From: Sphingomonas flavescens | GTDB lineage: Bacteria; Pseudomonadota; Alphaproteobacteria; Sphingomonadales; Sphingomonadaceae | Assembly (NCBI RefSeq): GCF_030866745.1 | Contig: NZ_CP133016.1 | Location: forward strand, 2,032,001 to 2,096,000 | Reading direction: 5' to 3' | DNA: 64,000 bases | The notes under the pieces: generated by a model | Databases searched by the model: none | What the model saw: only the letters and a program-made list of their open reading frames with translations | What the model was told of the DNA's origin: nothing | Part shown: piece by piece, positions 49,931 to 64,000 of the stretch | How the letters are laid out: each line of letters opens with the position of its first letter | Numbering within the stretch: position 1 is the first letter of the stretch | Made by a program: the position numbers and the translations under genes

Positions 49931-50890
49931 TCAATAGCGGAGCGCGGCCGCGCCCCAAGTAAAGCCACCGCCCATCGCTTCGAGGACGATCAGATCGCCG
50001 CGCTTGATTCGCCCATCCTTGACCGCGGTATCGAGCGCGAGCGGCACCGAGGCTGCCGAGGTGTTCGCATGCCGGTCGACGGTGACTACCACCTTCTCCG
50101 CCGGAAGCCCGAGCTTCCGCGCCGTGGCATCAAGGATGCGGGCGTTCGCCTGGTGCGGCACTACCCAGTCGACGTCCGCGGCGGTCAAGCCCGCGTCGGT
50201 GAGCACTTCGTTCAGCACGTCGGCGAGATTGACGACCGCGTGGCGAAAGACTTCGCGGCCTTTCATCCGCAGCTTGCCGACCGTCTGGGTGGTCGAGGGT
50301 CCGCCATCGACGAAGAGCAGGTCATTGTGACGGCCATCAGCGTGGAGCTTGGTGGCGAGGATGCCGCTCTCGGTCTCCTCGGCGCTCAGCACCAAAGCGC
50401 CGGCGCCGTCGCCGAACAGGACGCAGGTGGTGCGATCCTCCCAGTCGAGAATGCGGCTGAACGTCTCGGCGCCGATGACAAGTGCCTTGTTCGCGCTGCC
50501 CGAGCGAACCATCGAATCGGCGACTGACAGCGCGTAGAGAAAGCCGGTGCACACGGCATGCACGTCGAAGGCGATGCAGTCGTTGATGCCCAGCGCCGCC
50601 TGAACCTTGGTCGCGGTCGACGGAAAGGTTTGATCGGGCGTCGCGGTGGCGAGCACGATAAGGTCGATGTCCGCTGCCTGGAGGCCGGCATGAGCAAGCG
50701 CCGCGCGGGCGGCGTCGGTCGCGAGCGTGCCGGTCGTCTCGCCCTCACCAGCGAGGTAGCGATTGCGGATGCCGGTGCGCTCGACGATCCATTCGTCGGT
50801 GGTGTCGACTTGGCTTGCCAGTTCAGCGTTGGTGACCTGACGCTTGGGCAGTGCGCTGCCGACGCCAGCGATAACGGAACGGCGCGTCAC
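49931..50890 (-). CDS. fabH: 3-oxoacyl-[ACP] synthase III
   Basis: A 319-residue thiolase-fold enzyme that starts fatty-acid synthesis by joining acetyl-CoA to malonyl-ACP. The active Cys is in [14 protein letters not shown], the His in VPHQANARI, and the Asn in [13 protein letters not shown] start coupled to plsX (GTGA). Order rpmF-plsX-fabH-ihfA is as in related genomes. Confidence 0.97.
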
Positions 50891-51933
50891 TTAGCGCTCT
50901 CGGCGGCGAAAGCGTGGGCGCGGAAATTGTCGAGATCGTCGCCGATTTTCCGGGTGATGTCGTTGCGGACCATGCTGGCGGCGACGCGGATGGCGTTGGA
51001 CACGCCCTTTGGATTCGCGCTGCCGTGGCTCTTCACCACCAGGCCGTTGAGGCCGAGGAAAACGGCGCCGTTGTGATTGTTGGGATCGAGGTGGACCTTG
51101 AGCAGCTCCAGCGCCGGCTTGGACAGCGCGAAGCCGGCTTTCGAGCGCAGCGAGCTGGTGAAGGCGCGGCGGAGGAGGTCGGTCACGAAGCGCGCGGTGC
51201 CCTCGGCGGTCTTGAGCGCGATGTTGCCGGAGAAGCCGTCGGTGACGACGACGTCGACCTCGCCGCGCGAGAGCTGGTCGCCTTCGGTGAAGCCGTCGAA
51301 CTTGAACGCAAGGTAATCGGCTTCGCGCAGGAGCGCCGCCGCATCCTTGAGCTCGTCGGTGCCCTTGAGCTCTTCCGTGCCGATGTTGAGCAGCTTCACG
51401 CGCGGCGTGGCGAGGCCGAGTCCGGTGCGCGCATAGGCAGCGCCCATCACCGCGAACTGGACGAGGTTCTGCGCATCGCACTCGGTGTTGGCCCCGAGAT
51501 CGAGCATGATCACGTCGTTGTCGCCGAGTGTCGGGAGCAGTGCGGCCAGCGCGGGCCGGTCGATGCCGGGCATGGTCCGCAGCGCGAGCTTGGACATGGC
51601 CATCAGCGCGCCGGTGTTGCCGCCGGACAAGGCCGCGTCCGCGCGATGTTCCTTCACTGCATTGATCGCCATGCCCATCGACGTGGTGCGGGCGCGGCGG
51701 ATCGCCTGGCTCGGCTTCTCGCTGCCGCCGATCGATTCGGGCGAGTGGCAGATCGTCGCCGATTTCAGGCTCGGATGGCGCGCGACTTCGGCCGCGACGA
51801 GTGCCTCGTCGCCGTAGAAGGTGAATTGAAGCGAGGCGTCCTTGCGCAGCGCGCGCGCGGCACCGCCGATCATCGCCGCCGGGCCGCTGTCGCCGCCCAT
51901 GGCGTCGATTGCAATTCGCGGGCCGTCAGACAT
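50887..51933 (-). CDS. plsX: Phosphate acyltransferase PlsX
   Basis: A 348-residue enzyme that makes acyl-phosphate from acyl-ACP for phospholipid synthesis. [18 protein letters not shown] at the start, [29 protein letters not shown], and [17 protein letters not shown] are typical. Followed by fabH. Confidence 0.97.
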
Positions 51934-51962
51934 TGACGAGCGCCCCTGCTTGCTTGACGGTC

Positions 51963-52142
51963 TCAGGCCTCGGTCGAGACGATTTCGCGGCCGTTATAAT
52001 GGCCGCAGGCGGCGCACAGATTGTGCGGCAGCTTCAGCTCGCCACAGTTTGGGCATTCCTGATAGGTCGTCGGCTTCAGCGCATGGTGGCTGCGGCGCAT
52101 GTTGCGCTTCGACGGCGAGGTTTTTCTCTTGGGGACAGCCAT
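51963..52142 (-). CDS. rpmF: 50S ribosomal protein L32
   Basis: A 59-residue ribosomal protein starting [22 protein letters not shown], with a Cys pair at each side of the zinc site (CPNCGE, CAACG). The frame opens at 52166; ATG 52142 is the family start and has AAGGTG before it. It leads the plsX operon. Confidence 0.97.
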
Positions 52143-52477
52143 TGCGGCACCTTCAAATGCTAACAATAAAAATTGCGACGATCTGCGCCCAGTCTCAGCA
52201 GGTTACCCCACCGGCGGCGCCCGGATCGTCGCGAACCGCGGCTCCTATAGCGAAACGCGGCGGGAAGGCAAGGCGGGGTGGCGGTGCCCCCAGCCGATCG
52301 CGAATGTTCCGAATGTTCACAGTGACGGGCGGGTTTTTGGGCTCGGGCTTCTCCAAATGTTTCCGTTCAACGCTGCTGAACCGCGATGGGCGCTGTAGGA
52401 CAGCAAAAACGAGCTTCCGCTTAGTGTCCGCTTTCGACCCATTGCGGACATTAGCGTGATTGGAGAAGAAGGGGGCG
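52143..52477. other. Gene-free region between rpmF and the repeat array
   Basis: 335 bp without a gene I can support. It must contain the rpmF promoter on the minus strand, has a small direct repeat (GAATGTTCCGAATGTTC near 52304-52320), and holds the first palindromic repeat of the array (52422-52454). No clear -35/-10 pair is seen. Confidence 0.5.
52422..52454 (+). repeat. Palindromic array repeat, copy 1
   Basis: Arms AGTGTCCGC and GCGGACATT flank the 12-base loop TTTCGACCCATT. It is the first of 14 copies that share this loop and orientation between here and 60.6 kb, and it lies just upstream of the LprI-like gene. Confidence 0.9.
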
Positions 52478-52858
52478 ATGCACTACCCCAGCGCGTTTCT
52501 GTGGATTGCCTTGCAAGCTTCAGCGGCAACGCCTGACACGTATTCGCGATGTGAGAACCCGGCTGCTGACGACGCTCGGCCATACATTCTTTGTGTAACG
52601 GAGACTGACTTCGATAGGGCCGATGTTCGACTAAAAGCGCAGTGGCACAGGAGTCTCGATTACATAGGTCGGAGTAGGGGCGCCAAGGCAAGGAAGCACT
52701 TAATTGCCGATCAGCGAAAGTGGCTACGAAAGCGAGATCGCGCCTGCGATGCGGTCGCTGCTTCGTCTCCCAGCACGCAATCTGGTCGTAACCAGATGTC
52801 GTGTCTCGTCCAGAAGACCAAAGCCCGCATCTCCAAGTTGAAAGCGATGATGCATTAA
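52478..52858 (+). CDS. Exported LprI-like protein (DUF1311)
   Basis: A 126-residue protein with a short signal peptide (MHYPSAFLWIALQASAATP) and a DUF1311 domain: CVTETDFDRADVRLKAQWHRSLDYIGR...HLIADQRKWLRKRDRACD, with Cys residues as in lysozyme inhibitor LprI. It may guard against lysozyme or act in the periplasm. ATG 52478 has GAAGGGGG upstream. Confidence 0.75.
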   Translation: MHYPSAFLWIALQASAATPDTYSRCENPAADDARPYILCVTETDFDRADVRLKAQWHRSLDYIGRSRGAKARKHLIADQRKWLRKRDRACDAVAASSPSTQSGRNQMSCLVQKTKARISKLKAMMH

Positions 52859-52868
52859 ACCGCACATC

Positions 52869-52903
52869 TGTGATGCCGGGTTATGATCCGTTGCGGACAC
52901 TCC
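52869..52903 (+). repeat. Palindromic array repeat, copy 2 (degenerate)
   Basis: Only the right half is well kept (GATCCGTTGCGGACAC); the left arm is worn. It lies ten bases after the stop of the LprI-like gene, the same place as the other copies. Confidence 0.55.
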
Positions 52904-52926
52904 AAGTCAATGCGATCAACTGCTCA

Positions 52927-53292
52927 ATGATCCATTTACTTGCGCTCCTAATGTTGGAACCGGCAGCACCAGTGATAGCTGATGACGCGGCGTCGGCGGT
53001 CGTGGACCCTGCGCAGGTTAGAGAGCGGATAGCTGCGTTCGACAGGGATGTTCGTGACAGCGGTATTCCGGGTCGCGTGAGAAGCTGCCGATTGATCACG
53101 GAAGTTTCGCTCGGGCGCGATCAGAGCAATCAGAGCTACGGCGGGATTTGTTCGATCGAGTTCGGCAAGCGCAGGCGAGAGTATCTGCTCTGCAATGACA
53201 GGCTCGTCGGCCACTTTGCCTTGGCGGCTGACTTTGTTGTCAGTGGTGAGTGGGTCGAAAGGTTCGTGAAGTCCAACTGCGTTGGAGGCTAG
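52927..53292 (+). CDS. Small exported protein of unknown function
   Basis: A 121-residue protein with a short hydrophobic start (MIHLLALLMLEPAAPVIA) that may be a signal peptide, then a soluble part with three Cys. The frame runs further upstream through repeat copy 2, where DPLRTL is repeat-derived. No family recognised. Confidence 0.5.
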   Translation: MIHLLALLMLEPAAPVIADDAASAVVDPAQVRERIAAFDRDVRDSGIPGRVRSCRLITEVSLGRDQSNQSYGGICSIEFGKRRREYLLCNDRLVGHFALAADFVVSGEWVERFVKSNCVGG

Positions 53293-53303
53293 AACTCTCC
53301 GGC

Positions 53304-53335
53304 GAGTGACTGCTTTCCACCCAAAGCGGACACTC
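53304..53335 (+). repeat. Palindromic array repeat, copy 3
   Basis: Loop TTTCCACCCAAA with right arm GCGGACACTC; the left arm GAGTGACTGC has two mismatches to it. It lies 12 bases past the preceding stop. Confidence 0.75.
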
Positions 53336-53393
53336 CGCGGCATGCGGCGCATAGGTTAGCTCAGTCGTAATCTATCTGGCCTAATGCATCGCG

Positions 53394-53693
53394 GTGACAA
53401 AACGTCTCTTGATCATCGCCGTGGCGACGCTGAGTTTGTCGCCAGTCATTTGGATCATGTGGAGCCTTGGCTGGACCGCTGGCTCATTGGTCCTCGCATT
53501 CTTGTGCGCGGGCGGACTCTTCATCGGAGCATCGAACGCTCTTTTGCTCTTCGCTCGGGAGCCCGTGCTCGTCCAAGTCTACCAAGGTGCTGAGGGTGAC
53601 TCTACGCGACCGCAAGGACCACTAGGCAACGTAGTAGGGCCGTTGACGTTCGGGCTCTTCGCCTTGTTGATGCTCTGGGTAGCATCACAGTAA
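53394..53693 (+). CDS. Small membrane protein
   Basis: A 99-residue protein with three hydrophobic segments (about 4-20, 28-50, 82-97) and GTG start. Between them is a polar loop (REPVLVQVYQGAEGDSTRPQG). No motif gives a function. Confidence 0.55.
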   Translation: MTKRLLIIAVATLSLSPVIWIMWSLGWTAGSLVLAFLCAGGLFIGASNALLLFAREPVLVQVYQGAEGDSTRPQGPLGNVVGPLTFGLFALLMLWVASQ

Positions 53694-53703
53694 TTGAAGC
53701 AGC

Positions 53704-53736
53704 GAATGTCTGATACCGACCCATTGCGGACGCTAG
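53704..53736 (+). repeat. Palindromic array repeat, copy 4
   Basis: GAATGTCTG ... ACCGACCCATT GCGGACGCTAGAG. The left arm is partly changed; the loop and right arm keep the consensus. It starts ten bases after a stop codon. Confidence 0.75.
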
Positions 53737-53759
53737 AGTCAGTTGGCACTTACACGGCG

Positions 53760-53939
53760 ATGTCGCGGACAGAACGACTTGCTCGGATCATTGCCTCGGC
53801 TGCGATACTCGGCGGTGTCGGAGTATGGGTTACTGTGCGCCAGACTGGTGCTGGCCAAGTCCTCTTTTTGTTCGTCTGGATTGTTGGGCTAACCGCAATA
53901 ATAACCGCAAAGCTCAGCAAATCGCGTCCAGATCCCTAA
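53760..53939 (+). CDS. Small membrane protein
   Basis: A 59-residue protein with two hydrophobic segments (about 10-25 and 32-48) and a short basic tail. ATG 53760 is used; the frame opens at 53694 and would include repeat sequence. Unknown function. Confidence 0.45.
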   Translation: MSRTERLARIIASAAILGGVGVWVTVRQTGAGQVLFLFVWIVGLTAIITAKLSKSRPDP

Positions 53940-53968
53940 GTCCGATTGCGACCCATTGCGGATATTAG
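53937..53968 (+). repeat. Palindromic array repeat, copy 5
   Basis: TAAGTCCGA..TTGCGACCCATTGCGGATATTAGCG. The stop codon TAA of the preceding small gene is the first three bases of the repeat. Confidence 0.75.
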
Positions 53969-53978
53969 CGAAAGCTGA

Positions 53979-54281
53979 TTGTCTACGGAGGTGAGCCAGG
54001 TTGATCGAGCGCCTGACCGGCGGATGCTGGTCGTTTTGGTCGCAGCGGTAGTCGTGTGGGGTGCGCTTGGGCTTTACCTCTCCATCAGACTTGGCTGGCC
54101 AGCCCGCTATGGAGTGCGTTGCGGTGGATTTTGCTTCCCTAACGAACTCGCGAAAAGCGGCCTATTGCTACCCCGCAGAAGTCCGGATGAAGTGACTCTG
54201 TTCGTGTGGCTATGGTCTTGGCCCGCCATCGCTGTCTTTGAAATCATCTATTGGATCGCGGGCAAATCGGTCCGAAGCTAA
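53979..54281 (+). CDS. Small membrane protein with two helices
   Basis: About 100 residues with helices at about 17-36 and 74-94. Starts at TTG 53979, GTG 53991 or ATG 54024 are all possible. Its TAA stop is supplied by the next repeat. No family recognised. Confidence 0.5.
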   Translation: MSTEVSQVDRAPDRRMLVVLVAAVVVWGALGLYLSIRLGWPARYGVRCGGFCFPNELAKSGLLLPRRSPDEVTLFVWLWSWPAIAVFEIIYWIAGKSVRS

Positions 54282-54310
54282 TGTCCGCTTTCGACCCATT
54301 GCGGACATTA
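54279..54310 (+). repeat. Palindromic array repeat, copy 6
   Basis: The cleanest copy: TAATGTCCGC and GCGGACATTA form a perfect ten-base inverted repeat around TTTCGACCCATT. The first three bases are the stop codon of the gene before. Confidence 0.92.
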
Positions 54311-54339
54311 CCAGCATCGTCAGATATGGCCGCCTGATT

Positions 54340-54582
54340 ATGGTTTTGGCCAAATTGATGCAGGCTGTCAGCATCCTCGCCTTGATCGTTGGAACTGCGG
54401 CTTGGTTTTACCACGCCCGGTATTTCATGCCGATTTGGCGGGTAGGTTTTCGTCCGCGTGACGAGCACCGAGGCTATGGACGGAAGGCAATGATTGGGGC
54501 GGCGACGTTTATCGTTGCATGCGTAGTCGGCCTAGCCGCTGGATGGCTTTCCGCGAAGATGGGAGGTGACCTGCTTCACTAA
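54340..54582 (+). CDS. Small membrane protein
   Basis: An 80-residue protein with two hydrophobic helices (about 6-24 and 52-70) separated by FMPIWRVGFRPRDEHRGYGRK. ATG 54340; the frame upstream is repeat-derived (RPIADI). Its stop TAA lies in the next repeat. Unknown function. Confidence 0.5.
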   Translation: MVLAKLMQAVSILALIVGTAAWFYHARYFMPIWRVGFRPRDEHRGYGRKAMIGAATFIVACVVGLAAGWLSAKMGGDLLH

Positions 54583-54612
54583 TGTCCGCTTTCCACCCAT
54601 TGCAGACATTAG
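54579..54612 (+). repeat. Palindromic array repeat, copy 7 (left edge of duplicated unit)
   Basis: CTAATGTCCGC and GCAGACATTAG around TTTCCACCCATT; one arm base is changed (GCAGAC). Left boundary of the first 754-bp duplicate lies within its left arm at 54583. Confidence 0.9.
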
Positions 54613-55336
54613 CGGCGCTCGTCAGATAACCGTAGGCCATGACCGACGAGCAAATCCTGAGGTGGATGCCTTATGTCTTCCCAATCTTCTTCGTGGGAAT
54701 GTGGCTGCTCATCTCGACATTGCTCGGGGTAATGTCGGGCTGGTTCAACCTCCAGCAGTGGTACGCCGACGACAATAGCGAGGAGCCGCTGCTGAAGCTC
54801 GGCTGGCAATCCGGGGTGATGGGGGTCGGCGTCAATCTCAACGGGATCTTGACGCTCGCTGCGAAACGGTCGGGCCTCTCGATCCGCATCTGGCGCATAT
54901 TTGGCCCCTTCCAGAAGCCCCTCCTTGTGCCATGGAGCGAGATCAGTGCGGAGCCTGCGCGGAGCTTCTTCACTCAGATGGTCAAGCTCGGTCTCGGCAA
55001 TCCGCCCAACGGTAGGCTGAAGATTAATGCGGCGACCTGGTCCAAATTGGTGGCCGTCGCTGGTCCAATCGCCAAAGTTCCTTTGCCGCTAGCCACGGCG
55101 GTCTCGCGCAAGTCAATGGCGTTGCGCATGTTTCTCGAGTGGGTCGTGATCACCGCAGGAGCTGCGACGTTCTTTTGGTTCGCTCCGTATTTCATCAGCC
55201 CTCCGGGCGAGAGAGTCGGTTTGCCGATCGTCATCTGCATTTTATTCCCGGCGATTGTATTCGGGTTAGGGCAATTGATCCGCTACGCCCGCGAAAGCTG
55301 ATCGATCCTAATGTCCGCTTTCCACCCATTGCGGAC
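54583..55336 (+). repeat. Duplicated 754-bp repeat-bounded unit, first copy
   Basis: Matches 55954-56707 with four differences (54648, 54913, 55090, 55312), an offset of 1371 bp. Both ends of identity fall inside the palindromic repeats, so the repeat-gene-repeat unit was copied as one block. Confidence 0.95.
54639..55301 (+). CDS. Membrane protein of unknown function, duplicate copy 1
   Basis: A 220-residue protein with N-terminal helix (about 11-31), a central soluble part, and C-terminal helices (about 162-182 and 192-212). The centre (LVPWSEISAEPARSFFTQMVKLGLGNPPNGRLKINAATWSKL) may be a PH-like fold, but this is a guess. An almost identical copy lies at 56010, differing at Glu4, Gln92 and Leu151. 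Confidence 0.75.
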   Translation: MTDEQILRWMPYVFPIFFVGMWLLISTLLGVMSGWFNLQQWYADDNSEEPLLKLGWQSGVMGVGVNLNGILTLAAKRSGLSIRIWRIFGPFQKPLLVPWSEISAEPARSFFTQMVKLGLGNPPNGRLKINAATWSKLVAVAGPIAKVPLPLATAVSRKSMALRMFLEWVVITAGAATFFWFAPYFISPPGERVGLPIVICILFPAIVFGLGQLIRYARES

Positions 55337-55341
55337 GTTAG
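55309..55341 (+). repeat. Palindromic array repeat, copy 8 (right edge of first duplicate)
   Basis: TAATGTCCGC and GCGGACGTTAG around TTTCCACCCATT, seven bases after the stop of the 220-residue gene. Identity with the second duplicate ends within its right arm. Confidence 0.9.
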
Positions 55342-55363
55342 AGTTGGGAAGCATCATCTCCTC

Positions 55364-55945
55364 ATGAACAACGACGCGGACTTCCGAGCCGGAGATGTCC
55401 TTCGAATTGATTGGGACGAGCGGCCCATTCGCGTGATGATGGCTGACAATGTTGAAGTGTTTTACGACGCGCTGTTTCCAGAAGTCGGCTGGAACTTGGC
55501 CCGCGCGCGAACTGCCATTTATTACAGAAGTTCGACGAGCTTCCTTCGGTCGACTGCGCAATGCATCAGAACCGAACCGCTCACCGACAAGGAGCTTGCA
55601 AGGCATCGACCTGACCTTCCCATACGCATCCTGCGGAGTGGGGAGGCAGATTGGCGTAATCCATTAGTGGATTGGCCGAAGATCAACACTAATATCGAGG
55701 TCAAAACCAATCGGCTCGCGCTAGTCCCTTTTGGCCCGAACGGCGCACCACAGAGAGCCGTCGTCGTCGAAGCGGATGATGGCAAGACATTCAGAGGAAA
55801 CGAGCTGCTGGAATTGGCGCATAGCGTCCAAACAGCCAAGTGCTCGGATGTGCGCGGCGTCGGGTTGTATCGGAGCGGCATCTCGGCTGGCATTCCGTCA
55901 TACTATCTATGGGGAGCGGTCGACAAAGCTGGTCACGCTGCCTGA
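55364..55945 (+). CDS. Protein of unknown function between the duplicates
   Basis: A 193-residue soluble protein (MNNDADFRAGDVLRIDWDERPIRVMMADN...). The first part looks like an all-beta fold; YRSSTSFLRSTAQCIRTE and a later KTNRLALVPFGPNG are conserved-looking but I do not recognise a family. GGGAAG lies 11 bases before the ATG. Only this gene separates the two 754-bp duplicates. Confidence 0.6.
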   Translation: MNNDADFRAGDVLRIDWDERPIRVMMADNVEVFYDALFPEVGWNLARARTAIYYRSSTSFLRSTAQCIRTEPLTDKELARHRPDLPIRILRSGEADWRNPLVDWPKINTNIEVKTNRLALVPFGPNGAPQRAVVVEADDGKTFRGNELLELAHSVQTAKCSDVRGVGLYRSGISAGIPSYYLWGAVDKAGHAA

Positions 55946-55951
55946 CGTCGG

Positions 55952-55983
55952 AGTGTCCGCTTTCCACCCATTGCAGACATTAG
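55952..55983 (+). repeat. Palindromic array repeat, copy 9 (left edge of second duplicate)
   Basis: AGTGTCCGC and GCAGACATTAG around TTTCCACCCATT. From TGTCCGC (55954) rightward it is the same as copy 7; leftward the sequence differs. Confidence 0.9.
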
Positions 55984-56707
55984 CGGCGCTCGTCAGATAA
56001 CCGTAGGCCATGACCGACCAGCAAATCCTGAGGTGGATGCCTTATGTCTTCCCAATCTTCTTCGTGGGAATGTGGCTGCTCATCTCGACATTGCTCGGGG
56101 TAATGTCGGGCTGGTTCAACCTCCAGCAGTGGTACGCCGACGACAATAGCGAGGAGCCGCTGCTGAAGCTCGGCTGGCAATCCGGGGTGATGGGGGTCGG
56201 CGTCAATCTCAACGGGATCTTGACGCTCGCTGCGAAACGGTCGGGCCTCTCGATCCGCATCTGGCGCATATTTGGCCCCTTCCGGAAGCCCCTCCTTGTG
56301 CCATGGAGCGAGATCAGTGCGGAGCCTGCGCGGAGCTTCTTCACTCAGATGGTCAAGCTCGGTCTCGGCAATCCGCCCAACGGTAGGCTGAAGATTAATG
56401 CGGCGACCTGGTCCAAATTGGTGGCCGTCGCTGGTCCAATCGCCAAAGTTCCTTTGCCGCCAGCCACGGCGGTCTCGCGCAAGTCAATGGCGTTGCGCAT
56501 GTTTCTCGAGTGGGTCGTGATCACCGCAGGAGCTGCGACGTTCTTTTGGTTCGCTCCGTATTTCATCAGCCCTCCGGGCGAGAGAGTCGGTTTGCCGATC
56601 GTCATCTGCATTTTATTCCCGGCGATTGTATTCGGGTTAGGGCAATTGATCCGCTACGCCCGCGAAAGCTGATCGATCCTAACGTCCGCTTTCCACCCAT
56701 TGCGGAC
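55954..56707 (+). repeat. Duplicated 754-bp repeat-bounded unit, second copy
   Basis: About 99.5% identical to 54583-55336, with both ends inside palindromic repeats. Confidence 0.95.
56010..56672 (+). CDS. Membrane protein of unknown function, duplicate copy 2
   Basis: A 220-residue protein as at 54639, with Glu4Gln, Gln92Arg and Leu151Pro. All three coding differences change the amino acid. Same three-helix layout and spacing from the repeat upstream. Confidence 0.75.
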   Translation: MTDQQILRWMPYVFPIFFVGMWLLISTLLGVMSGWFNLQQWYADDNSEEPLLKLGWQSGVMGVGVNLNGILTLAAKRSGLSIRIWRIFGPFRKPLLVPWSEISAEPARSFFTQMVKLGLGNPPNGRLKINAATWSKLVAVAGPIAKVPLPPATAVSRKSMALRMFLEWVVITAGAATFFWFAPYFISPPGERVGLPIVICILFPAIVFGLGQLIRYARES

Positions 56708-56712
56708 ACTAG
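56680..56712 (+). repeat. Palindromic array repeat, copy 10
   Basis: TAACGTCCGC and GCGGACACTAG around TTTCCACCCATT, seven bases past the stop of the second 220-residue gene. Confidence 0.88.
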
Positions 56713-56734
56713 CGATGCTGCGCAGAATAGCTCG

Positions 56735-56890
56735 ATGTTCCGCACATCAAGTCTGGTCATGACCCTTCTGCTATTGTGCGCATGCGCACGCTCGACCACA
56801 GTGCGGTGCGCTCGGTCGCTTGCCGATAGCATTGTCGACACGAATGATTACATGTCGGTAAGAACGGAGATAATCCAATGCGGTCGGTGA
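56735..56890 (+). CDS. Very small lipoprotein-like protein
   Basis: A 51-residue frame from ATG 56735: MFRTSSLVMTLLLLCACARS could be a lipoprotein signal (LLCA). The short rest has no motif. The upstream frame is repeat-derived. It is followed closely by the next gene. Weak call. Confidence 0.35.
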   Translation: MFRTSSLVMTLLLLCACARSTTVRCARSLADSIVDTNDYMSVRTEIIQCGR

Positions 56891-57060
56891 AGACGGACGC
56901 CGCGCTCGACGCGTTGAACGATGAGCGCGACCATCTCGCAATCCAGATCAACCTTGCTGCCGATAGCGAAGGGCTCGATATGACGAGGCTCTCGGCGCTG
57001 CGTCAGAAGCTGGCGAGGCTCGAACTCAAAATCCAAAACTACCGGCCCGCGACCGCCTGA
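56878..57060 (+). CDS. Small coiled-coil protein
   Basis: A 60-residue helical protein (DAALDALNDERDHLAIQINLAADSEG..RLSALRQKLARLELKIQ). GGAGA seven bases before ATG 56878 supports translation. It has no repeat between it and the preceding frame and overlaps it by 13 bp. Confidence 0.6.
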   Translation: MRSVKTDAALDALNDERDHLAIQINLAADSEGLDMTRLSALRQKLARLELKIQNYRPATA

Positions 57061-57199
57061 TACCGAGCGCCTGCCAAAGCACTTGATGATTAGGTGGCGC
57101 CGTCAGTCCGTGCTAGAAGGGGTCATCGCACGGAACCTATTGTAAGCCTGTGCGGCTGAGAGACCCATCGCGCTCCCGCTTACTGTCGGGAGATATTCC

Positions 57200-57358
57200 G
57201 TGGACCTCAATTATTTTTACGCGCGCCATCAGGTGTCGCTCTTCATGGCCGATCATGCGGCTTGCGATCGCTCGCGGGCCGTTCACCGCGAATTTGCCGA
57301 TGGCTATGCCGCCCGCATCGCCAGCGAGCGTTTCGACCGGCGGGCGATTGCGTCGTGA
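57200..57358 (+). CDS. Small protein of the DxxxxYxRHQxSLF family, member 1
   Basis: A 52-residue protein below common length cut-offs: it starts VDLNYFYARHQVSLFMADHA and ends IASERFDRRAIAS. GGGAGA lies seven bases before the GTG. A related protein is encoded on the minus strand at 59147-59308, sharing Y.RHQ.SLF.AD and HRE.A.GYA.RI, which supports both as real. GTGA overlap with the next gene. Confidence 0.75.
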   Translation: MDLNYFYARHQVSLFMADHAACDRSRAVHREFADGYAARIASERFDRRAIAS

Positions 57359-57504
57359 GCGGCAACGATAATGGCGTCGACGAGACAGAGCTCAAGCGCC
57401 TAGGCATTCAACGCGTGCCCACGGAAGTATTTCTGTGGGGCGGCTACCGATACAGCAATGCGCGAGACGCCATCGCCGCTGCTCGGCGGGCGGACGCCAA
57501 GTGA
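57355..57504 (+). CDS. Small protein of unknown function
   Basis: A 49-residue frame (VSGNDNGVDETELKRLGIQRVPTEVFLWGGYRYSNARDAIAAARRADAK) that overlaps both neighbours by GTGA. The two four-base overlaps and a sensible composition support translation. No known family. Confidence 0.65.
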   Translation: MSGNDNGVDETELKRLGIQRVPTEVFLWGGYRYSNARDAIAAARRADAK

Positions 57505-57725
57505 GCCGCGAGATATTCGTTAGGCTCGATGAGAAAAAGGTGATCGCAGACTGCGCAGCGGCCGGATTCACCATCTCGACCATCGAGCGCATCCCCAGTG
57601 GCGGCGTTCGACTAGTCCTCAGCAGCAGTTTCGGGGCGCATCAGATGCGGCAGAAGTACAAGTCTCAGCTCATCGAAGAGACCGTCACGCGCGAACGCAT
57701 CCGTCCGCGCAAACCCAGTTGGTAA
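57501..57725 (+). CDS. Small basic protein of unknown function
   Basis: A 74-residue protein starting VSREIFVRLDEKKVIADCAAAGFTISTIERIPSGGVRLVL and ending basic (RERIRPRKPSW). GTG start by GTGA overlap. Third gene of a coupled micro-operon. Confidence 0.65.
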   Translation: MSREIFVRLDEKKVIADCAAAGFTISTIERIPSGGVRLVLSSSFGAHQMRQKYKSQLIEETVTRERIRPRKPSW

Positions 57726-57737
57726 GGAAGCTTTCAG

Positions 57738-57866
57738 ATGGCCAAGAGTCAGCAGAAGTCGAACAAGGAAATTCGAAAGCCGAAGAAGGCCAAGGTCAAG
57801 ACAATCGCGGCCAATCCCTCGCAGAAGGGCGGAGCGCGCGGGCTCGAAAACCTGAAGAACGACTAG
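57738..57866 (+). CDS. Small Lys-rich conserved protein
   Basis: A 42-residue protein MAKSQQKSNKEIRKPKKAKVK..., a type I recall as a short conserved protein in alphaproteobacteria. AGGAAG seven bases before ATG supports the start. Twelve bases after the preceding stop. Role unknown. Confidence 0.7.
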   Translation: MAKSQQKSNKEIRKPKKAKVKTIAANPSQKGGARGLENLKND

Positions 57867-57881
57867 GTGCGGAACGATTAT

Positions 57882-58058
57882 ATGCGATCGCGAGATCCCG
57901 CCGGACAATATAGAACGGATCCTGGTGCCGGGCGCAGCCCGATGGTTTACGTTATTGGCGGTGCGTCACCCAGTTACATGACGGAAGCGATGTACCGGGC
58001 GCGGGGGGTCAAGCCGCCTTTTGAGGAACTGCCGACCGAGGCTGAATACGACGCCTAA
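57882..58058 (+). CDS. Small protein of unknown function
   Basis: A 58-residue frame MRSRDPAGQYRTDPGAGRSP...ARGVKPPFEELPTEAEYDA. GGAA lies seven bases before ATG 57882; GTG 57867 directly after the prior stop is the alternative. No motif. Confidence 0.5.
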   Translation: MRSRDPAGQYRTDPGAGRSPMVYVIGGASPSYMTEAMYRARGVKPPFEELPTEAEYDA

Positions 58059-58112
58059 CTGAAACACTCCCGCTCGTGCCTGCGCACGCGGCTGGACCGG
58101 TGTGATTTCAGA

Positions 58113-58289
58113 CTAACCCAAACGCCGGTTCAATTCGGCAACCCGTGTTTCGATGCGCTCGATGGCTTCCGGCGTAGTGGCCTGCAACTCTCGCAGGCCT
58201 TCCGCGTCAACGTGAGTAATTCGTCCGCTGCGCATGCCGCGTAAGAGTTTGACCAGCCGATCGCGTTCTTCGTGCCAACTTTCACTCAT
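58113..58289 (-). CDS. Small helical protein
   Basis: A 58-residue protein MSESWHEERDRLVKLLRGMRSGRITHVDAEGLRELQ..., charged and helical. It is below usual length limits. The family is not known to me with a function, but the composition and its GAGG before ATG make translation likely. Confidence 0.6.
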   Translation of the reverse strand: MSESWHEERDRLVKLLRGMRSGRITHVDAEGLRELQATTPEAIERIETRVAELNRRLG

Positions 58290-58346
58290 GGCCTCAACCG
58301 TAATTCTTGAAGAGCGGCGTCAGATGTCATCTGGCGCAACCTGCGT

Positions 58347-58553
58347 TCAGACATTGCCAAGTCTCACGGCCTGTCGCTCGCCTCGAACGGCCCCAAGCTC
58401 ATAGGTAAGGCGCTGCCCCACCAAAGGCCGGATTTGCGGATTAAAGTAAATGCCGCTGCGCTCGAATACCAAATATTCGCCGCCACTGTCGGCTTCGATC
58501 AGGCCGCGTCCAAGAAGAGGGTTGAACGACTTCACCGTTCCGCAGAGCCTCAT
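58347..58553 (-). CDS. Cold-shock-domain-like protein, divergent
   Basis: A 68-residue protein: LCGTVKSFNPLLGRGLIEADSGGEYLVF resembles a cold-shock domain, with the RNP-1 motif altered (GRGLIEA instead of GFGFI). It overlaps the upstream cold-shock gene by ATGA. RNA binding may be reduced. Confidence 0.75.
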   Translation of the reverse strand: MRLCGTVKSFNPLLGRGLIEADSGGEYLVFERSGIYFNPQIRPLVGQRLTYELGAVRGERQAVRLGNV

Positions 58554-58861
58554 GTCGGCCGTTCTTCCGCGACAACCGCAACTTCGCTTTTCTCAGCTGG
58601 CGGCAGAGGAGACGCTAACGGTTCGCCTATGCGGGCTGTCGACACGTCGACGTGCAATATTTCAACCACACGATGCTTGCCTCGATCCGGTGTGATTAAC
58701 ACTTGCAGCGTGGTGCCCCGCGGAAGAGCCTCAAACCCTGCAGCTTGAAGCGCATCCCGGTGCAGGAAGGCGTCTCCCAGGCGATCGGCCAACTTGACGA
58801 AGCCGAACCGTTTCTCGCGGTTGAACCAACTAAGTTGACCAGCACAGACGGACTTCACCAT
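58550..58861 (-). CDS. Cold-shock-domain protein
   Basis: A 103-residue protein with one cold-shock domain (AGQLSWFNREKRFGFVKLADRLGDAFLHRDALQAAG) holding RNP-1 (KRFGFV), then an acidic-Pro tail. It is first of a pair with the divergent member downstream on the same strand. Confidence 0.85.
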   Translation of the reverse strand: MVKSVCAGQLSWFNREKRFGFVKLADRLGDAFLHRDALQAAGFEALPRGTTLQVLITPDRGKHRVVEILHVDVSTARIGEPLASPLPPAEKSEVAVVAEERPT

Positions 58862-59146
58862 TCGGATTTGCCCGCAAACTCCCCCGATCCGCGCAGATAT
58901 GCCCGGCGCGGACCGGAGGTCCTCCCTAATGGGAGGGAACGGTCGGAACGGCGGAACTCGGATGCCAAGCGCCTCACCGCTTCAAGCTTGCTGAGTCGAT
59001 ACGGCGGGCGTCGTCGTCAAACTGATCGGCAACAGACCTTAAAGCCTGAAAGCCGCCTGACGTTCGTGCCCTCGATGCCAGTCGACGGCATGAGGCCGCT
59101 TGCTCGCGAAGCGAGTCAGCCGCCTCGCCTCGTGAAAGCGGCTCCA
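58862..59146. other. Gene-free region upstream of the cold-shock genes
   Basis: 285 bp without a supported gene. It should hold the promoter of the cold-shock pair on the minus strand. A CCTCCC/GGGAGG hairpin with TAAT loop lies near 58921-58936. Confidence 0.4.
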
Positions 59147-59308
59147 TTAGGCTGCCGCTAATTTGAACGAAGACTTCGTGGCCGAGATGCGTGAAGCATA
59201 GCCCTCAGCAAGCTCGCGGTGGATGCGCCGCAACTCTTCTGAACTTGCAATCTGATCGGCCCTGAACAGCGAAATCTGGTGGCGTTGGTAATGGTCGCTG
59301 GGATCCAC
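59147..59308 (-). CDS. Small protein of the DxxxxYxRHQxSLF family, member 2
   Basis: A 53-residue protein (VDPSDHYQRHQISLFRADQIASSEEL..) related to the product of 57200-57358 on the opposite strand. GGAGAG lies six bases before the GTG. The shared positions in two divergent copies support translation. Confidence 0.75.
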   Translation of the reverse strand: MDPSDHYQRHQISLFRADQIASSEELRRIHRELAEGYASRISATKSSFKLAAA

Positions 59309-59599
59309 GTCGTGCTCTCCTCTGCGTAAGCGGGAGCACGGTTCGTCTCTCAGGCGCGCGGGCCTACGGTGAGATATTCCGCGCGATGATGGTTACTTAA
59401 CACACCCCGTCCAATCTACCTAACGCGTTCTCACGCTGACGTATGTTTCGATCCGTCGCAGACCTGCCTTGGGGAACTGCCTCAATCATCGGATCCTCTC
59501 TCAGCAGACACGGGTGAGAAGCGCTGGGAACAGAGGGTAAAGAAGGTCGCGAAGAAACAGCTTTCGGAACGTTACTGCTGGCCCAATGATTGGACTTTC

Positions 59600-59797
59600 A
59601 TGTCAGATGCGGCGAACCGCTTTCGGGATCGCGCGCGCGATTGCCTCAACCTAGCAAAAGGTGCTCGCTATGTTGGCGACCGCATCATGCTGGAAGAGAT
59701 CGCGGCCGACCTAGAGGATGAAGCTAAGCGGATTGATTCGGAAGCACGGTCCAAGTCGTCGAAGCGTCCACCCGCTCAAGACGACCATCCGGATTAA
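59600..59797 (+). CDS. Small helical protein
   Basis: A 65-residue protein MSDAANRFRDRARDCLNLAKGARYVGDRIMLEEIAADLEDEAKRIDSEARSK. Similar short proteins with a RYRxxAxxCLxLA pattern are common in alphaproteobacteria; function unknown. Confidence 0.7.
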   Translation: MSDAANRFRDRARDCLNLAKGARYVGDRIMLEEIAADLEDEAKRIDSEARSKSSKRPPAQDDHPD

Positions 59798-59920
59798 GCC
59801 GTGCTACCAGGCGATCTCGTAGCCATATCTCGCAGCGCTTAGCGTCCGGCTTTAGCTCGCGCACTTTCTATCCACGGCGCAAAGCTACCGCACCGAGGCC
59901 ATGCGCTTTGCCAGTCTGCG

Positions 59921-59953
59921 GAATGTCCACGTTCCACCCAATGCAGACATTAG
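59921..59953 (+). repeat. Palindromic array repeat, copy 11
   Basis: GAATGTCCAC and GCAGACATTAG around GTTCCACCCAAT, with some arm changes. It is followed by copy 12 within five bases. Confidence 0.8.
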
Positions 59954-59957
59954 CGCA

Positions 59958-59987
59958 GTGGCTGCTTCCGACCCATTGCGGACATTA
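59958..59987 (+). repeat. Palindromic array repeat, copy 12
   Basis: Loop and right arm are intact (TTCCGACCCATTGCGGACATTAA) but the left arm is only GTGGCTGC. Copies 11 and 12 stand in tandem with no gene between. Confidence 0.75.
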
Positions 59988-60025
59988 AGAACCATTGCCA
60001 CGATGCAGCCGATGGAGATGGCGCA

Positions 60026-60214
60026 ATGATACTCTTTGCTGTTGTCGGCTTACTGGCTGCTGCCTTCTGCATTTGCCGCAGCATCGCGGATTTTCGCGCC
60101 AAGCGTTACGTCTGGGCAGCTGCTGGCATGCTCAGCGGCGCGGCTCTTTTGGTTACCCCAATGCAGACCCACGCTGTGAAGTTCGAGAAGTCCATACTGA
60201 CCCAGCCAAAGTAA
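60026..60214 (+). CDS. Small membrane protein
   Basis: A 62-residue protein with two hydrophobic helices (about 2-19 and 28-45). GGAG eight bases before ATG 60026. Unknown function; sits between repeats 12 and 13. Confidence 0.55.
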   Translation: MILFAVVGLLAAAFCICRSIADFRAKRYVWAAAGMLSGAALLVTPMQTHAVKFEKSILTQPK

Positions 60215-60222
60215 GCGCTGCC

Positions 60223-60255
60223 AAATGTCCGCTTACCACCCATTGCGGACATTAG
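60223..60255 (+). repeat. Palindromic array repeat, copy 13
   Basis: AAATGTCCGC and GCGGACATTAG around TTACCACCCATT, eight bases after a stop codon. Confidence 0.88.
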
Positions 60256-60278
60256 GGTCGGCTGACATTCTGAAATGC

Positions 60279-60593
60279 ATGAGATGGGCTGTGTTGTTGA
60301 TGGCATCCGCACTTGCGGGCTGTGCTGGCCCGAAGAACTCATTCGTGGTCGACGATCCGCAAAGGCTCGTCCGGACCGCCACGCTTAGGCTGTGCGGTTC
60401 AGAGACTCCGCTGCTGCGGCAGGGTCAGCGCTTCTCGCTGTCAGCCCCAGTCAGGTGCGAAGGCGATGGAGAAATCAGGCTCGTCTATGCAGATCGCAGG
60501 TCGGAGCACTGCGTGGTCGGCTACGTCACGCCCCAAGCGCAGCAGGAATTCCGGTTCCGTGCGGAGCAGTCCTCCTGCAAGCCAATCAGCTAG
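60279..60593 (+). CDS. Small lipoprotein
   Basis: A 104-residue protein with lipoprotein signal (MRWAVLLMASALAGC, Cys15) and a soluble part with three further Cys (LRLCGSETPLL, VRCEGDGE, HCVVGYV...SSCKPIS). The frame upstream of ATG 60279 is repeat-derived (HPLRTLG). Its stop TAG lies in the next repeat. Confidence 0.6.
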   Translation: MRWAVLLMASALAGCAGPKNSFVVDDPQRLVRTATLRLCGSETPLLRQGQRFSLSAPVRCEGDGEIRLVYADRRSEHCVVGYVTPQAQQEFRFRAEQSSCKPIS

Positions 60594-60623
60594 CGTCCGT
60601 TTTCCACCCAAAGCAGACATTAG
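60590..60623 (+). repeat. Palindromic array repeat, copy 14
   Basis: CTAGCGTCCGT and GCAGACATTAG around TTTCCACCCAAA. It supplies the stop codon of the lipoprotein gene and marks the end of the array. Confidence 0.85.
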
Positions 60624-60625
60624 CC

Positions 60626-61303
60626 TCAGGCCGTCGCTAGCGCGGCGTCACTCACATAGGGGTTGGTCGCGCGTTCGTAGCCGAAGGTGGACATCTGGCC
60701 GTGGCCGGGGACGAAGGCGGTTTCGTCGCCCATCGGCCACAGGCGGGTGGTGATCGAGCGGAGCAGGTCCTGCTGATTGCCGTGGGGAAAGTCCCAGCGG
60801 CCGACCGAGCCCTTGAACAGGACGTCGCCGACCAATGCGAGGTTCGATTCGGGGTGGTGGAAGACGACGTGGCCGGGCGTGTGGCCGGGGCAGTGACGGA
60901 CGTCGAGGGTCAGATTGCCAACGGTCACCTGGTCGCCGTCCGCCAGCCAGCGGTTGGACTCGAACGGACGGCCGGGGACGCCGTACTTGGCGCCGTCCTC
61001 GGCGAGGCGGTCGATCCAGTAACGGTCGCCCTCGTGCGGGCCTTCAATCTCGACGCCAAGCTCTTCGGCGAGGATGCCGGCGCTGCCGCAATGGTCGATG
61101 TGGCCGTGGGTCAGCAGGATCTTCTCGACCGTCACGCCGTGCTGCTGCGCTGCCGCCTTGAGGAGGTGCAGGTCGCCGCCCGGATCGCAGAAGGCGCCGC
61201 GCATTGTCGCGGTGCACCACAGCAGGGTGCAATTCTGCTGCAGCGGCGTGACCGGGATGATGGTCGCCTTCAGCGGGCGGTCGTTCGCTCCCTCAGCGCT
61301 CAT
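60626..61303 (-). CDS. MBL fold metallo-hydrolase (glyoxalase II-like)
   Basis: A 225-residue enzyme with the metallo-beta-lactamase metal motif [14 protein letters not shown], plus [24 protein letters not shown] and [15 protein letters not shown]. It is like the YcbL group of glyoxalase II-type hydrolases. ATG 61303 overlaps the stop of the dipeptidase (ATGA); the frame to 61708 lies within it. It is just outside the array. Confidence 0.92.
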
Positions 61304-62556
61304 TTGCCCTTGTCGAGGTCCGACAGCGCGGCAGGCTCGTTCTTCATCGACGCCGCGACCTTCTCCGCGCCGCGCAAGGCCCGCAGCACGTTGCCGCCGG
61401 CGAGCTTGGCAAGGTTGGCATCTGACCAGCCACGCTTGATCAGCTCGGCGAACACCAAGGGATAGGTCTCGACGCCGCCGAGGCCCGTCGGCGCGTAGGG
61501 GATCCCGTCGAGGTCGGCGCCGATGCCGACATGGTCGTAGCCCGCGACCTTGGCGACATGCTCGATATGGTCGGCGACGATGCGGACGTCGGTGTCCGGA
61601 CGCGGGTGGGCAGCCTCCCAGGCCTTGAGGCCGGCGGCGACAGCGTCCTTGCTGGCGCGATTGAGCGATTTGAGGCGTGCTTCCTCGGCGCTCTGGTCGG
61701 CCCCCCATTTGTAGACCGCGTCGGAAATGAAGCCGGGGACCCAGTTGACCATGACCACGCCGCCATTGGCGGGCAGCAGCTTCAGCACGTCGTCGGGCAC
61801 GTTGCGCGGGTGATCGACCAAGGCGCGTGCGGAGGAGTGGGAGAAGATGACCGGCGCCTTGCTGGCGGCTATCGCGTCCTTCATCGTCGCGGGCGCGACG
61901 TGGCTGAGGTCGACCAGCATGCCGATGCGGTTCATCTCATGCACCACCTCGACGCCGAACGGGCTGAGCCCGTCGTACTTGGGCTCGTCGGTCGCGGCGT
62001 CTGCCCATTCGGTGGTCTGGTTGTGGGTCAGCGTCATGTAGCGCGCGCCGAGGTTGTAGAACTGTCGCAGCGCGGCGAGCGAGCCGCCGATCTGGCGCCC
62101 GCCCTCGATGCCGATCAGCGAGGCGACCTTGCCCTTCTTGTGAATGCGGATGACGTCGTCGGCGGTGTAGGCCTGCTCGAGATCGTTGGGGTAAGCGGCG
62201 ATCATCCGCTTGACGATGTCGATCTCCTGCAGCGTCTCGCGAATCGCGGCATCGCCAGTGATCGAGCCATCGATGTACACCGACCAGAACTGGCCGCCGA
62301 CACGGCCGGCGTGAAGGCGCGCCATGTCGGTCATCAGCGCGCGCGGCTTCCGCTGGTCGGTTCCACTGGCGAGGCCCGTGATGTCGCGCTGGTAATTTTC
62401 GGCCAGTTGCTCGGCGATGTCGTTGTGACCGTCGATGAGCGGCGTCGTCTTGAGGATACGGTCGATCCGCGCCTGAACCTTGGGATCGATGGACTGAGCG
62501 GAAGCGGGCGCGGCAATGGCGGCGATCGCGGCGGCGACGAGCAGGGCTTTCTTCAT
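61300..62556 (-). CDS. Exported M19 membrane dipeptidase
   Basis: A 418-residue protein with signal peptide ([21 protein letters not shown]) and an M19 fold: [11 protein letters not shown] with the metal Hx[42 protein letters not shown], and GIGADLDGI near the end. It cleaves dipeptides in the periplasm. ATG 62556 is used; the frame opens at 62808. Confidence 0.94.
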
Positions 62557-62650
62557 GCATCGAGGTGTAGGAAGCGCGGCGGCGGCGCGCAATGCGGCGC
62601 GTGGAATCGGGGCTTGCCGTTTGTCCGTCCGCCGACGATGGAGGCGCGCA

Positions 62651-62881
62651 ATGCACGATCTTGAAGAAACGATGCGCTTCGACCCCGACGACGGGATCGC
62701 CGATCTCGACACGCATCTCGACCGGTTGAAGCAGGCCGCGGAAGCGCAGGGCTTCAAGTTCGACCGGCACGCCGCGCGCAACGAGCTGCAGGCGGCGACG
62801 TTCGGCAAGCGGCGGCTATCGACGGCGCGGCTGGTGCTGTCGCCGACAGGAGCGATGGCGATCGAGGTTCGTCCGCTCTAG
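62651..62881 (+). CDS. Small protein of unknown function
   Basis: A 76-residue protein [43 protein letters not shown]... with GGAGG six bases before ATG. It is divergent from the dipeptidase and convergent with pdeM by four bases. No family known to me. Confidence 0.65.
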
Positions 62882-63540: not shown

Positions 63541-63583
63541 ACGGCCGGTCTAACTGCCGGCCGGCGGTCACGCCAGCCCGAAA

Positions 63584-63925
63584 TTATTCGTAGTCGTTGC
63601 CCGACGGGCTCGGACGCGGCGGGGCGGCCGCGGTCAGGCGCAGCGCCTCGGCGGCCTCGCTCAGCGACGCCAGCTCTTCCGTTTCGTCCTCTTCGTCGAT
63701 CCGCACCTTCTGCAGGTTGGTGACGACCGCTTCCTGGAGGTCGCGCGGCTTGACGGTGACTTCCGCGATTTCGCGCAAGGCGACGACCGGGTTCTTGTCG
63801 CGGTCGCGATCGATGGTCAGGTCGGCACCGCCCGAGATCTGGCGCGCGCGCTGGGCGGCCAGCAGGACAAGATCGAACCGGTTGGGGATCTTGTCGACAC
63901 AATCTTCAACGGTAACGCGCGCCAT
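63584..63925 (-). CDS. rpoZ: RNA polymerase omega subunit
   Basis: A 113-residue omega subunit: [55 protein letters not shown] is diagnostic. It helps assemble RNA polymerase and binds ppGpp in proteobacteria. GGAGCGATGA precedes the ATG. The acidic-Pro tail is longer than in E. coli, as in other sphingomonads. Confidence 0.97.
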
Positions 63926-64000
63926 TCATCGCTCCGGGACTTAACGGACTTTCGGGAAGAGCGGCGAGATAGGGAAGACGGCCCGTTTCGTCAAGGAAAC

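Follow-up and report, generated by a model that had tools for sequence, protein, structure and literature searches.

The stretch examined here, a window of 64,000 nucleotides from Sphingomonas flavescens (RefSeq assembly GCF_030866745.1, contig NZ_CP133016.1, positions 2,032,001 to 2,096,000 of the forward strand), carries near its right end an array of 34-bp repeats that stand between short genes. By the tests made, this array probably belongs to an integron-like cassette system that has its own recombination site and, most likely, its own recombinase, and that is neither an integron nor a set of XerCD dif modules nor an element of the REP/RAYT type (repetitive extragenic palindromes and REP-associated tyrosine transposases). 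We lean towards regarding it as a third, independent bacterial platform for gene capture besides integrons and dif modules, in which an array of two-armed sites would exchange half-sites in double-stranded DNA through a minimal recombinase that sits at the point of convergence and is guarded by inverted flanking sites. Many genomes of one sphingomonad genus carry the system, and a betaproteobacterium and another proteobacterial genome have related forms of it, some of them with the spacers TGACCC and TGGCTA. Full-text literature searches, with most subscription journals and preprints outside their scope, returned no title or abstract describing the repeat or the system.

Layout of the array

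The 34-bp site is present in fourteen copies at window positions 52421-60623, all on the plus strand, the copy near 52871 being degenerate. A 30-mer consensus with up to 3 mismatches matched seven times in the window and not once in 100 dinucleotide shuffles, and a 32-mer (at least 22 matching positions) scanned against the remainder of the window found no further site. Twelve genes follow sites, with start codons 11-58 bp downstream of the site, and 11 of the 12 cassette stop codons overlap the next site or fall within 12 bp of it. An earlier reading, made from the letters of the window and here called the sequence-only reading, had described fourteen equally oriented copies, absent elsewhere in the window and mostly placed between a stop codon and the next start; the scans, the shuffles and the distances to starts and stops confirm this description. 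Its further statement that the genes are unrelated holds with the exception of one duplicated unit (54579-55308 and 55950-56679, 99.5% identical over 754 bp), between whose copies another cassette is found. The open reading frame (ORF) calls of the window run through the repeat as if it were protein, and the reading proposed here gives a meaning to sequence that ORF callers treat in this way.

Sites across the genome and the genes they delimit

In the 2.66-Mb genome that carries the window (G000; other genomes are likewise given G numbers, and fetched stretches or loci L numbers), a 26-mer core, searched at a tolerance of 3 mismatches, matches 52 times, 36 times forward and 16 times in reverse, as against no match for the reversed 26-mer pattern, and a looser pattern finds 71 copies. 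An even scatter through the genome, which would have spoken against the sequence-only reading, is not what is seen: 47 of the 52 sites lie less than 5 kb from another, and 33 of 36 such neighbours have a common direction. Over many arrays, the longest ORF of a unit is in the sense of the sites in 156 of 209 cases, in a search where sense ORFs could extend 20 nt into the next site and antisense ORFs could not; in these 156 units the median distance is 36 bp from the site to the ORF start and 14.5 bp from the ORF end to the next site, with a median coverage of 86%.

Crude tests on the cassette ORFs of G000 (n = 36) detected a strongly hydrophobic 19-mer in 16 and a lipobox-like motif in four, so that the earlier expectation of mostly exported, lipoprotein or membrane products proves about half right genome-wide. 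Among 34 ORFs of the G000 arrays, a set that excludes the LprI gene of the window, a Pfam search at E 0.001 yielded single HD, TIR and TPR proteins and left most without a match. At least one site is present in 31 of 398 genomes of a phylum-wide sample (G000 included), mostly in one or two copies, and in 44 of 249 genomes of a family sample. Plasmids gave no match to a 4.5-kb query from the array (52400-56900), and six stretches of viral contigs each contain one exact site.

Half-sites and spacer

We collected 385 sites by their core sequence alone (up to 1 mismatch in 14). Positions 12-15 and 17-21 hardly vary among them, partly as a consequence of this choice, and position 16 is C or G. The half-site consensus is CTAATGTCCGCTTT and, read inward from the opposite side, CTAATGTCCGCAAT, with 12 of 14 consensus bases common to the two halves and with CTAAT/ATTAG as the ends; a pattern for such arrays would be AATGTCCGCTTT-N6-AAAGCGGACATT. 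The spacer (positions 15-20, CSACCC) reads CCACCC in 200 and CGACCC in 169 of the sites, and it is this centre, not the stem, that is best conserved. The site thus described resembles a core of the lox/dif type, two like arms around an asymmetric spacer, the 6-bp limits of which we infer from arm symmetry.

If the repeat were kept as a hairpin, its arms should match each other. In six genomes, pairing between the two arms of a site is no better than between arms taken from separate sites of that genome (6.57 vs 6.57 in G000, 6.37 vs 6.44 in G034, 7.01 vs 6.98 in G043, 6.87 vs 6.72 in G022, 5.09 vs 5.41 in G013 and 6.75 vs 6.98 in G009), and in G000 the left arm GTCCG is combined with CGGAC 16 times and with CAGAC 15 times. 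Covariation at the seven partner pairs reaches z 3.6 for one pair, (7,28), in one genome, and the other six range from -1.2 to 1.6. Linkage, calculated over six genomes with the doublet 22/23 left out, averages z ~2.6 inside a half and 0.12-0.14 across the centre for any cut between positions 10 and 21; when position pairs 4-14 bp apart are matched for distance, the values are 2.2-2.3 inside a half and 0.9-1.3 across. Position 22 is tied to positions 26, 28, 30, 31 and 32 (z 3.3-6.1) and to no left position above 1.6. Because left and right halves assort independently, hairpin pairing is not maintained, and the linkage pattern fits a presumed central exchange in a double-stranded, two-armed site, not a selected hairpin. 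The sequence-only reading had not foreseen this: the crossover would lie inside its loop, and its arms would be exchangeable half-sites rather than a hairpin. A signature of circular intermediates, in which the downstream left half of a unit pairs with its upstream right half, gave no consistent result in the six genomes (unit/random 6.48/6.57, 6.67/6.44, 6.93/6.98, 6.79/6.72, 6.24/5.41 and 6.95/6.98).

A recombinase at the point of convergence

G000 encodes six PF00589 proteins. Two of them belong to the site clusters at 1.39 and 2.31 Mb, each within a copy of a 2.35-kb segment bounded by two facing sites; between these sites the copies share 91% identity. The sequence-only reading had proposed to look for a recombinase with the repeat at its own ends, and this is such a gene, at the centre of convergent arrays. 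The protein has ~200 aa and consists of the catalytic domain only. In an alignment of 16 sequences R54, K82, H151, R154 and Y186 are invariant and H177 is nearly so; we take these to be the RKHRHY residues, which together with the PF00589 domain place it in the tyrosine recombinase superfamily. Against NCBIfam it gives eight matches below threshold (XerC, XerA/NF040815, XerD, XerS and invertases) and none above a cut-off; NF040815 ('tyrosine recombinase/integron integrase') scores 55-57 bits against a cut-off of 220, and similarity to two 'tyrosine-type DNA invertase' models is weak (E 0.003-0.008). A profile search of the PDB returned XerD, XerC-like and XerH proteins only, and an AlphaFold2 model (mean pLDDT 47.4, pTM 0.39) was too poor for use.

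Of 71 genomes from the genus, 37 have a relative of the recombinase at E 1e-20. In 19 loci of the closer type, covered over ~10 kb on each side or less at contig ends, 108 of 119 sites point at the recombinase and 11 break the layout. The nearest site on the left is on the plus strand in 18 of 18 loci and the nearest on the right on the minus strand in 15 of 16, the exception being L177, the most diverged member, while the gene itself may lie on either strand between its sites. Over 93 stretches, counting neighbouring sites up to 6.5 kb apart in loci that were partly chosen for the recombinase and not for orientation, the recombinase or a remnant of it occupies 18 of 33 convergent, none of 18 divergent and 3 of 323 same-direction intervals (Fisher p 5.8e-19). 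Ten further loci, several with broken copies, show fitting sites in six cases (G211, G259, G030, G083, G019 and G013); in G013, which retains a 62-aa remnant, the nearest left site is on the plus strand and all seven right sites on the minus strand, and two of the five left sites point away. The convergent turning points at L016:3682-4100 and L214:3793-5066 are without a recombinase and are perhaps decayed platforms.

In a tree of 137 rows, one clade with support 100/99 has a site within 1.5 kb in 22 of its 24 rows, equal to 18 of 20 distinct loci, and within 2.6 kb in the remaining two. Five rows outside the clade also bear the array label, including G211 and G259, which belong to other genera and are 58-59% identical. 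Among 45 loci of other tyrosine recombinases, taken as a control, two have a site within ~1.5 kb. G000 encodes a third recombinase of the family (G000:C1:1990435-1990983, 61% identical), with no site within ~1.5 kb. The recombinase unit at L017:3534-5759 and L023:8625-10849 also holds an SRAP gene, a gene for a 97-aa protein and an SNase-like gene, and of these four only the recombinase recurs throughout 25 other recombinase loci. The three companions were dropped as candidate machinery: among the 25 loci, SRAP is present only at L167, within the unit, and an SNase relative only at L163, at a distance of 3 kb.

Recurrence of single units

Three cassettes are present twice in G000, with similarity that starts and ends inside sites: the unit of genes 7 and 9 of the window, the gene 5 unit, with a second copy in the 2.32-Mb array, and the gene 11 unit, with one at 1.465 Mb. 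For gene 5 the similarity runs from the CGACCC of the upstream site to the TTTCG of the downstream site. A comparison of 81 stretches from G000 and relatives (960 kb, 418 sites) identified 49 pairs of segments at least 82% alike over at least 150 bp, of which 15 have at least two of their four ends within 40 bp of a site; one orthologous flank and two recombinase units are among these 15, and the remaining 34 pairs include orthologous flanks of the slot next to rpmF described below, recombinase genes, internal repeats and partial matches.

At the upstream boundary, 7 of 12 pairs are free of mismatches after position 16 of 34, three (D, G and I) have an isolated single mismatch at positions 31-34 and two, J and K (the latter a recombinase unit), differ at 22-26, so that 10 of the 12 agree once the isolated mismatches at 31-34 are tolerated. 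Three units compared between G013 and G034 show identities of 96.7, 92.5 and 91.1%, as compared with 83.5% for the plsX region, and between G046 and G043 one unit is 87.8% identical against 80.1%. The simplest reading of these values is that single units have passed between species, which would make the transfer of single genes between species visible in sequence.

The rpmF slot in relatives

The array of the window occupies a slot between rpmF (51963-52166, minus strand; PF01783, E 1.5e-27) on the left and a gene for a metallo-beta-lactamase (MBL)-fold hydrolase (60626-61303, minus strand; PF00753, E 2.5e-29) on the right. All 20 relatives compared have both genes, less than 5 kb apart and in unchanged order, and in 13 of these the gap between them is at most 209 bp long and free of sites. 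In G025 the slot of 1,250 bp contains a clear site, a gene that reads as amidohydrolase-like and a degenerate site at the end, in G056 it contains four sites by scan and other genes, and in G000 fourteen sites. The orthologous slot is thus short, partly filled or full, in line with the gain and loss of whole units that the sequence-only reading had proposed to look for. Nor do the 20 relatives keep the same genes in it, which would have spoken against that reading. In G056 (L070), the DNA to the left of the first site looks by eye like the terminal 3' part of the MBL gene, which would fit entry of the array into the gene end with restoration of that end.

Proposed mechanism and points against it

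Under the mechanism that we propose, the repeat would be a site-specific recombination core to which the asymmetric 6-bp spacer CSACCC gives direction, and a cassette would extend from mid-site to mid-site, comprising a right half-site, usually one sense gene and a left half-site. The minimal tyrosine recombinase would, most likely, catalyse recombination between directly repeated, presumably double-stranded sites, so that a cassette is excised as a circle, and such circles would be inserted at other sites, the whole being conservative site-specific recombination at presumptive cleavage positions within the site. The recombinase gene is itself flanked by facing sites, and in the standard layout no direct pair spans it; it could therefore be inverted and not lost, whereas cassettes could be lost. 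That the recombinase flips and cannot leave would follow from the logic of site orientation, and this convergent layout makes a clear claim on why the recombinase is retained. The array of the window would be an orphan block without a recombinase, served in trans by the copies at 1.39 and 2.31 Mb if these are active today.

Several observations weigh against this mechanism. The main one is the existence of complete, site-rich genomes in which the search at E 1e-20 detected no recombinase, namely G009 (70 sites, 99% complete), G012 (66 sites, 100%) and G038 (45 sites, 99%), to which the less complete G042 (84 sites) and G061 (106 sites) may be added. A strict co-occurrence of recombinase and sites would be expected and is not found; site-rich genomes without the enzyme would need its loss, a diverged enzyme or supply in trans, and recombinase remnants exist, with decay in only a few genomes. 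Further, 15 of the 33 convergent intervals have no recombinase, and broken copies in G004, G018, G049 and G051 have no site in the fetched stretch. Nor is the association with arrays confined to one clade: the tree requires seven changes of label, and it must thus have arisen or been lost more than once. In the sites themselves, position 16 is linked to both halves, so that the exact exchange point is not fixed, and the downstream switch of the recurring units is blurred, the first mismatch falling at position 5, 5, 9, 11, 17, 22 and 26 in seven pairs. The bodies of these units have diverged by 0.3-10%, which may account for the blurring, and the downstream side alone does not fix the cut. In five further relatives the rpmF slot holds 0.6-4.9 kb of site-free DNA, which makes it a general insertion spot as well.

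Integrons are the textbook case of single-gene capture, and a separate system of the same layout and another chemistry would, if the proposed mechanism is true, add to the ways in which genes are known to travel in Alphaproteobacteria, and would offer a small recombinase whose 34-bp site is interchangeable.

Comparison with known systems and alternative explanations

A process that could shuffle the genes with the recombinase as a mere passenger is RecA-dependent exchange between the 34-bp repeats. The repeats are indeed alike and frequent, several complete site-rich genomes have no recombinase, and linkage across the centre at matched distances, at 0.9-1.3 vs 2.2-2.3, is lower and not nil. 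However, 34 bp is short for homologous exchange, and linkage falls at the centre and not only with distance, with position 22 tied to the right half. Unlike a passenger, the recombinase is located in convergent intervals in 18 of 21 cases, and passive homology leaves clusters pointing at it unexplained; we consider this explanation unlikely. It is very improbable that the repeat is a hairpin of the type found in REPs and bacterial interspersed mosaic elements (BIMEs), spread by a transposase of the RAYT type, or that it serves to terminate or stabilise RNA, the gene units being incidental. An imperfect palindrome that is short, of high copy number and mostly intergenic would suit such an element, and REPs and the REPtrons of RAYT transposases share with the present system short palindromic repeats and an enzyme gene flanked by the repeat (excerpts of PMC3733652). 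Yet G000 has no gene for a Y1 transposase or RAYT (PF01797, which found a match in 5 of 14 control genomes), the repeat ends in CTAAT/ATTAG and not in GTAG or CGTC, the two arms of a site match each other no better than arms drawn from separate sites and show no stem covariation, the centre rather than the stem is best conserved, the copies are clustered and the gene units move.

Cassettes of mostly one gene, sites in one direction, orphan arrays, accessory genes and a tyrosine recombinase nearby are features shared with integrons and with CALINs, the integron arrays without an integrase that offer a parallel to the site arrays without a recombinase here (excerpts of PMC9024848), and the NF040815 match of 55-57 bits, although below threshold, points the same way. 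According to the same excerpts, complete integrons are rare in Alphaproteobacteria, where IntegronFinder 2.0 found six, in Sphingobium and Agrobacterium (PMC9024848). What sets the present sites apart is their build: attC sites carry RYYYAAC and GTTRRRY boxes and span 57-141 bp (excerpts of PMC3053210), whereas the core here is two-armed and 34 bp long and, in its 34-bp window, has GTTRRRY in 1 of 385 and RYYYAAC in none of 385 sites. The crossover would be central, inside the loop and not at an edge, with cassettes carrying half-sites; the arms do not covary, and there is no sign of recognition of a folded single strand. The recombinase passes no integron-integrase or other NCBIfam cut-off and is not identified as IntI, arrays on both sides point toward it, and its flanking sites are copies of the same repeat. 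Since the genes mostly read toward the recombinase, a promoter of the integron type would not be expected. A divergent true integron or CALIN, with a folded single-stranded attC recombined by a relative of IntI, is therefore hardly credible, and the sequence-only reading's view of a cassette-like array that is not an integron is upheld by the lack of attC boxes and by units that recur singly with their boundaries in the repeat. Movement of the cassettes by XerCD at dif-like sites, as in the dif modules of Acinetobacter, with the array recombinase irrelevant, would explain arrays without a recombinase, and two arms around a short conserved spacer are the architecture of dif. In that system, one XerC and one XerD half-site flank a 6-bp spacer, with crossover inside the site and exchange of half-sites (excerpts of PMC13141974), and linear arrays of several dif/pdif modules are known, also on a chromosome (excerpts of PMC12907356); the spacer length, the in-site crossover and the half-site exchange would be common to both. 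The modules, however, have unlike XerC and XerD arms, in their standard form inverted flanking sites in which C and D alternate, and XerCD encoded in the chromosome away from them, while the halves here share 12 of 14 consensus bases instead of being two different ones (cf. excerpts of PMC13141974), their consensus does not seem to be like that of dif, the flanking sites are direct, the spacer is nearly fixed and the recombinase lies in the array, at the convergence point. We rate XerCD action as very improbable.

The cassette system proposed here also shows a likeness to the FimB/FimE-type invertases, which are short tyrosine recombinases without a separate core-binding domain and act where inverted sites flank a segment that can be flipped. 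It differs from them in that similarity to the invertase models is weak only, and in that the flanked segment holds the recombinase and is part of arrays.

Related versions outside the genus

When any spacer is accepted, the 77 distant loci, which total 1.23 Mb, contain 16 sites, half of them in L091, as against none after mononucleotide shuffling. L091, from a proteobacterial metagenome-assembled genome, has a recombinase flanked by facing sites whose arms are the same and whose spacer is TGGCTA, and also sites with the spacer TGACCC; at two places in L091:6601-7184, TGGCTA and TGACCC sites alternate 57 bp apart, the TGGCTA class flanking the recombinase, and the boundaries look as if they were composites of two site classes. 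L110, from the betaproteobacterium Massilia aurea, has three plus-strand sites to the left and two minus-strand sites to the right of its recombinase and so repeats the convergent layout; it was added by a k-mer search that missed one of five positive controls (L160) and is thus not sensitive. When the surroundings of 80 recombinases from named genomes were searched for families of hairpins, L091 alone was found, and most of the distant recombinases (60-69% identity) have no such site within their stretch. The recombinase query also matches 431 plasmid records, with a best identity of 60-80% in 145 and below 60% in 286, and 24 phage records.

Individual features of the array

From the left, all sites and cassette genes being on the plus strand, site 1 (52421-52454, two arms around CTTTCGACCCATTG) is followed by an LprI-like gene (gene 1, 52478-52858; PF07007, E 4.9e-10) and the degenerate site 2 (52870-52903) by gene 2 (52927-53292), which has no Pfam match at E 1. 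Genes 3 (53394-53693), 4 (53760-53939) and 6 (54340-54582), behind sites 3 (53303-53336), 4 (53703-53736) and 6 (54278-54311), encode small hydrophobic proteins without a Pfam match over the cut-off. Site 5 (53935-53968) precedes gene 5 (53979-54281, 100 aa), an identical protein to which is encoded at L023:15018-15320 on the minus strand, ~234 kb away, again with boundaries in sites. The duplicated unit comprises site 7 (54579-54612) with gene 7 (54639-55301, 220 aa) as its first and site 9 (55950-55983) with gene 9 (56010-56672) as its second copy, between which lie site 8 (55308-55341) and gene 8 (55364-55945).

Site 10 (56679-56712) is followed by gene 10 (56735-56890), lipoprotein-like by eye, and by the stretch of 3.2 kb within the array that is free of sites (56713-59919). 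Sites 11 (59920-59953) and 12 (59955-59988) are adjacent and form a gene-free junction; they are followed by gene 11 (60026-60214, 62 aa), whose second copy lies in the L018 array at ~1.465 Mb, site 13 (60222-60255), gene 12 (60279-60593), also lipoprotein-like by eye, and site 14 (60590-60623), which abuts the 3' end of the MBL-fold gene.

Insertion as a tRNA-targeted island was rejected as an origin of the array, the sole tRNA of the window lying far from it at 20180-20270, and so was a known RNA element, an Rfam scan of window positions 50000-64000 having given no match at the gathering score. Within the site-free stretch, at 57142-59367, two small homologous genes are arranged divergently, one at 57199 on the plus and one at ~59309 on the minus strand. 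Their leaders are alike, with GTAAGC/GCTCCCGC stems (inverted pairs, 42 nt at 81% and 57 nt at 72%), and possibly represent a shared regulatory leader.

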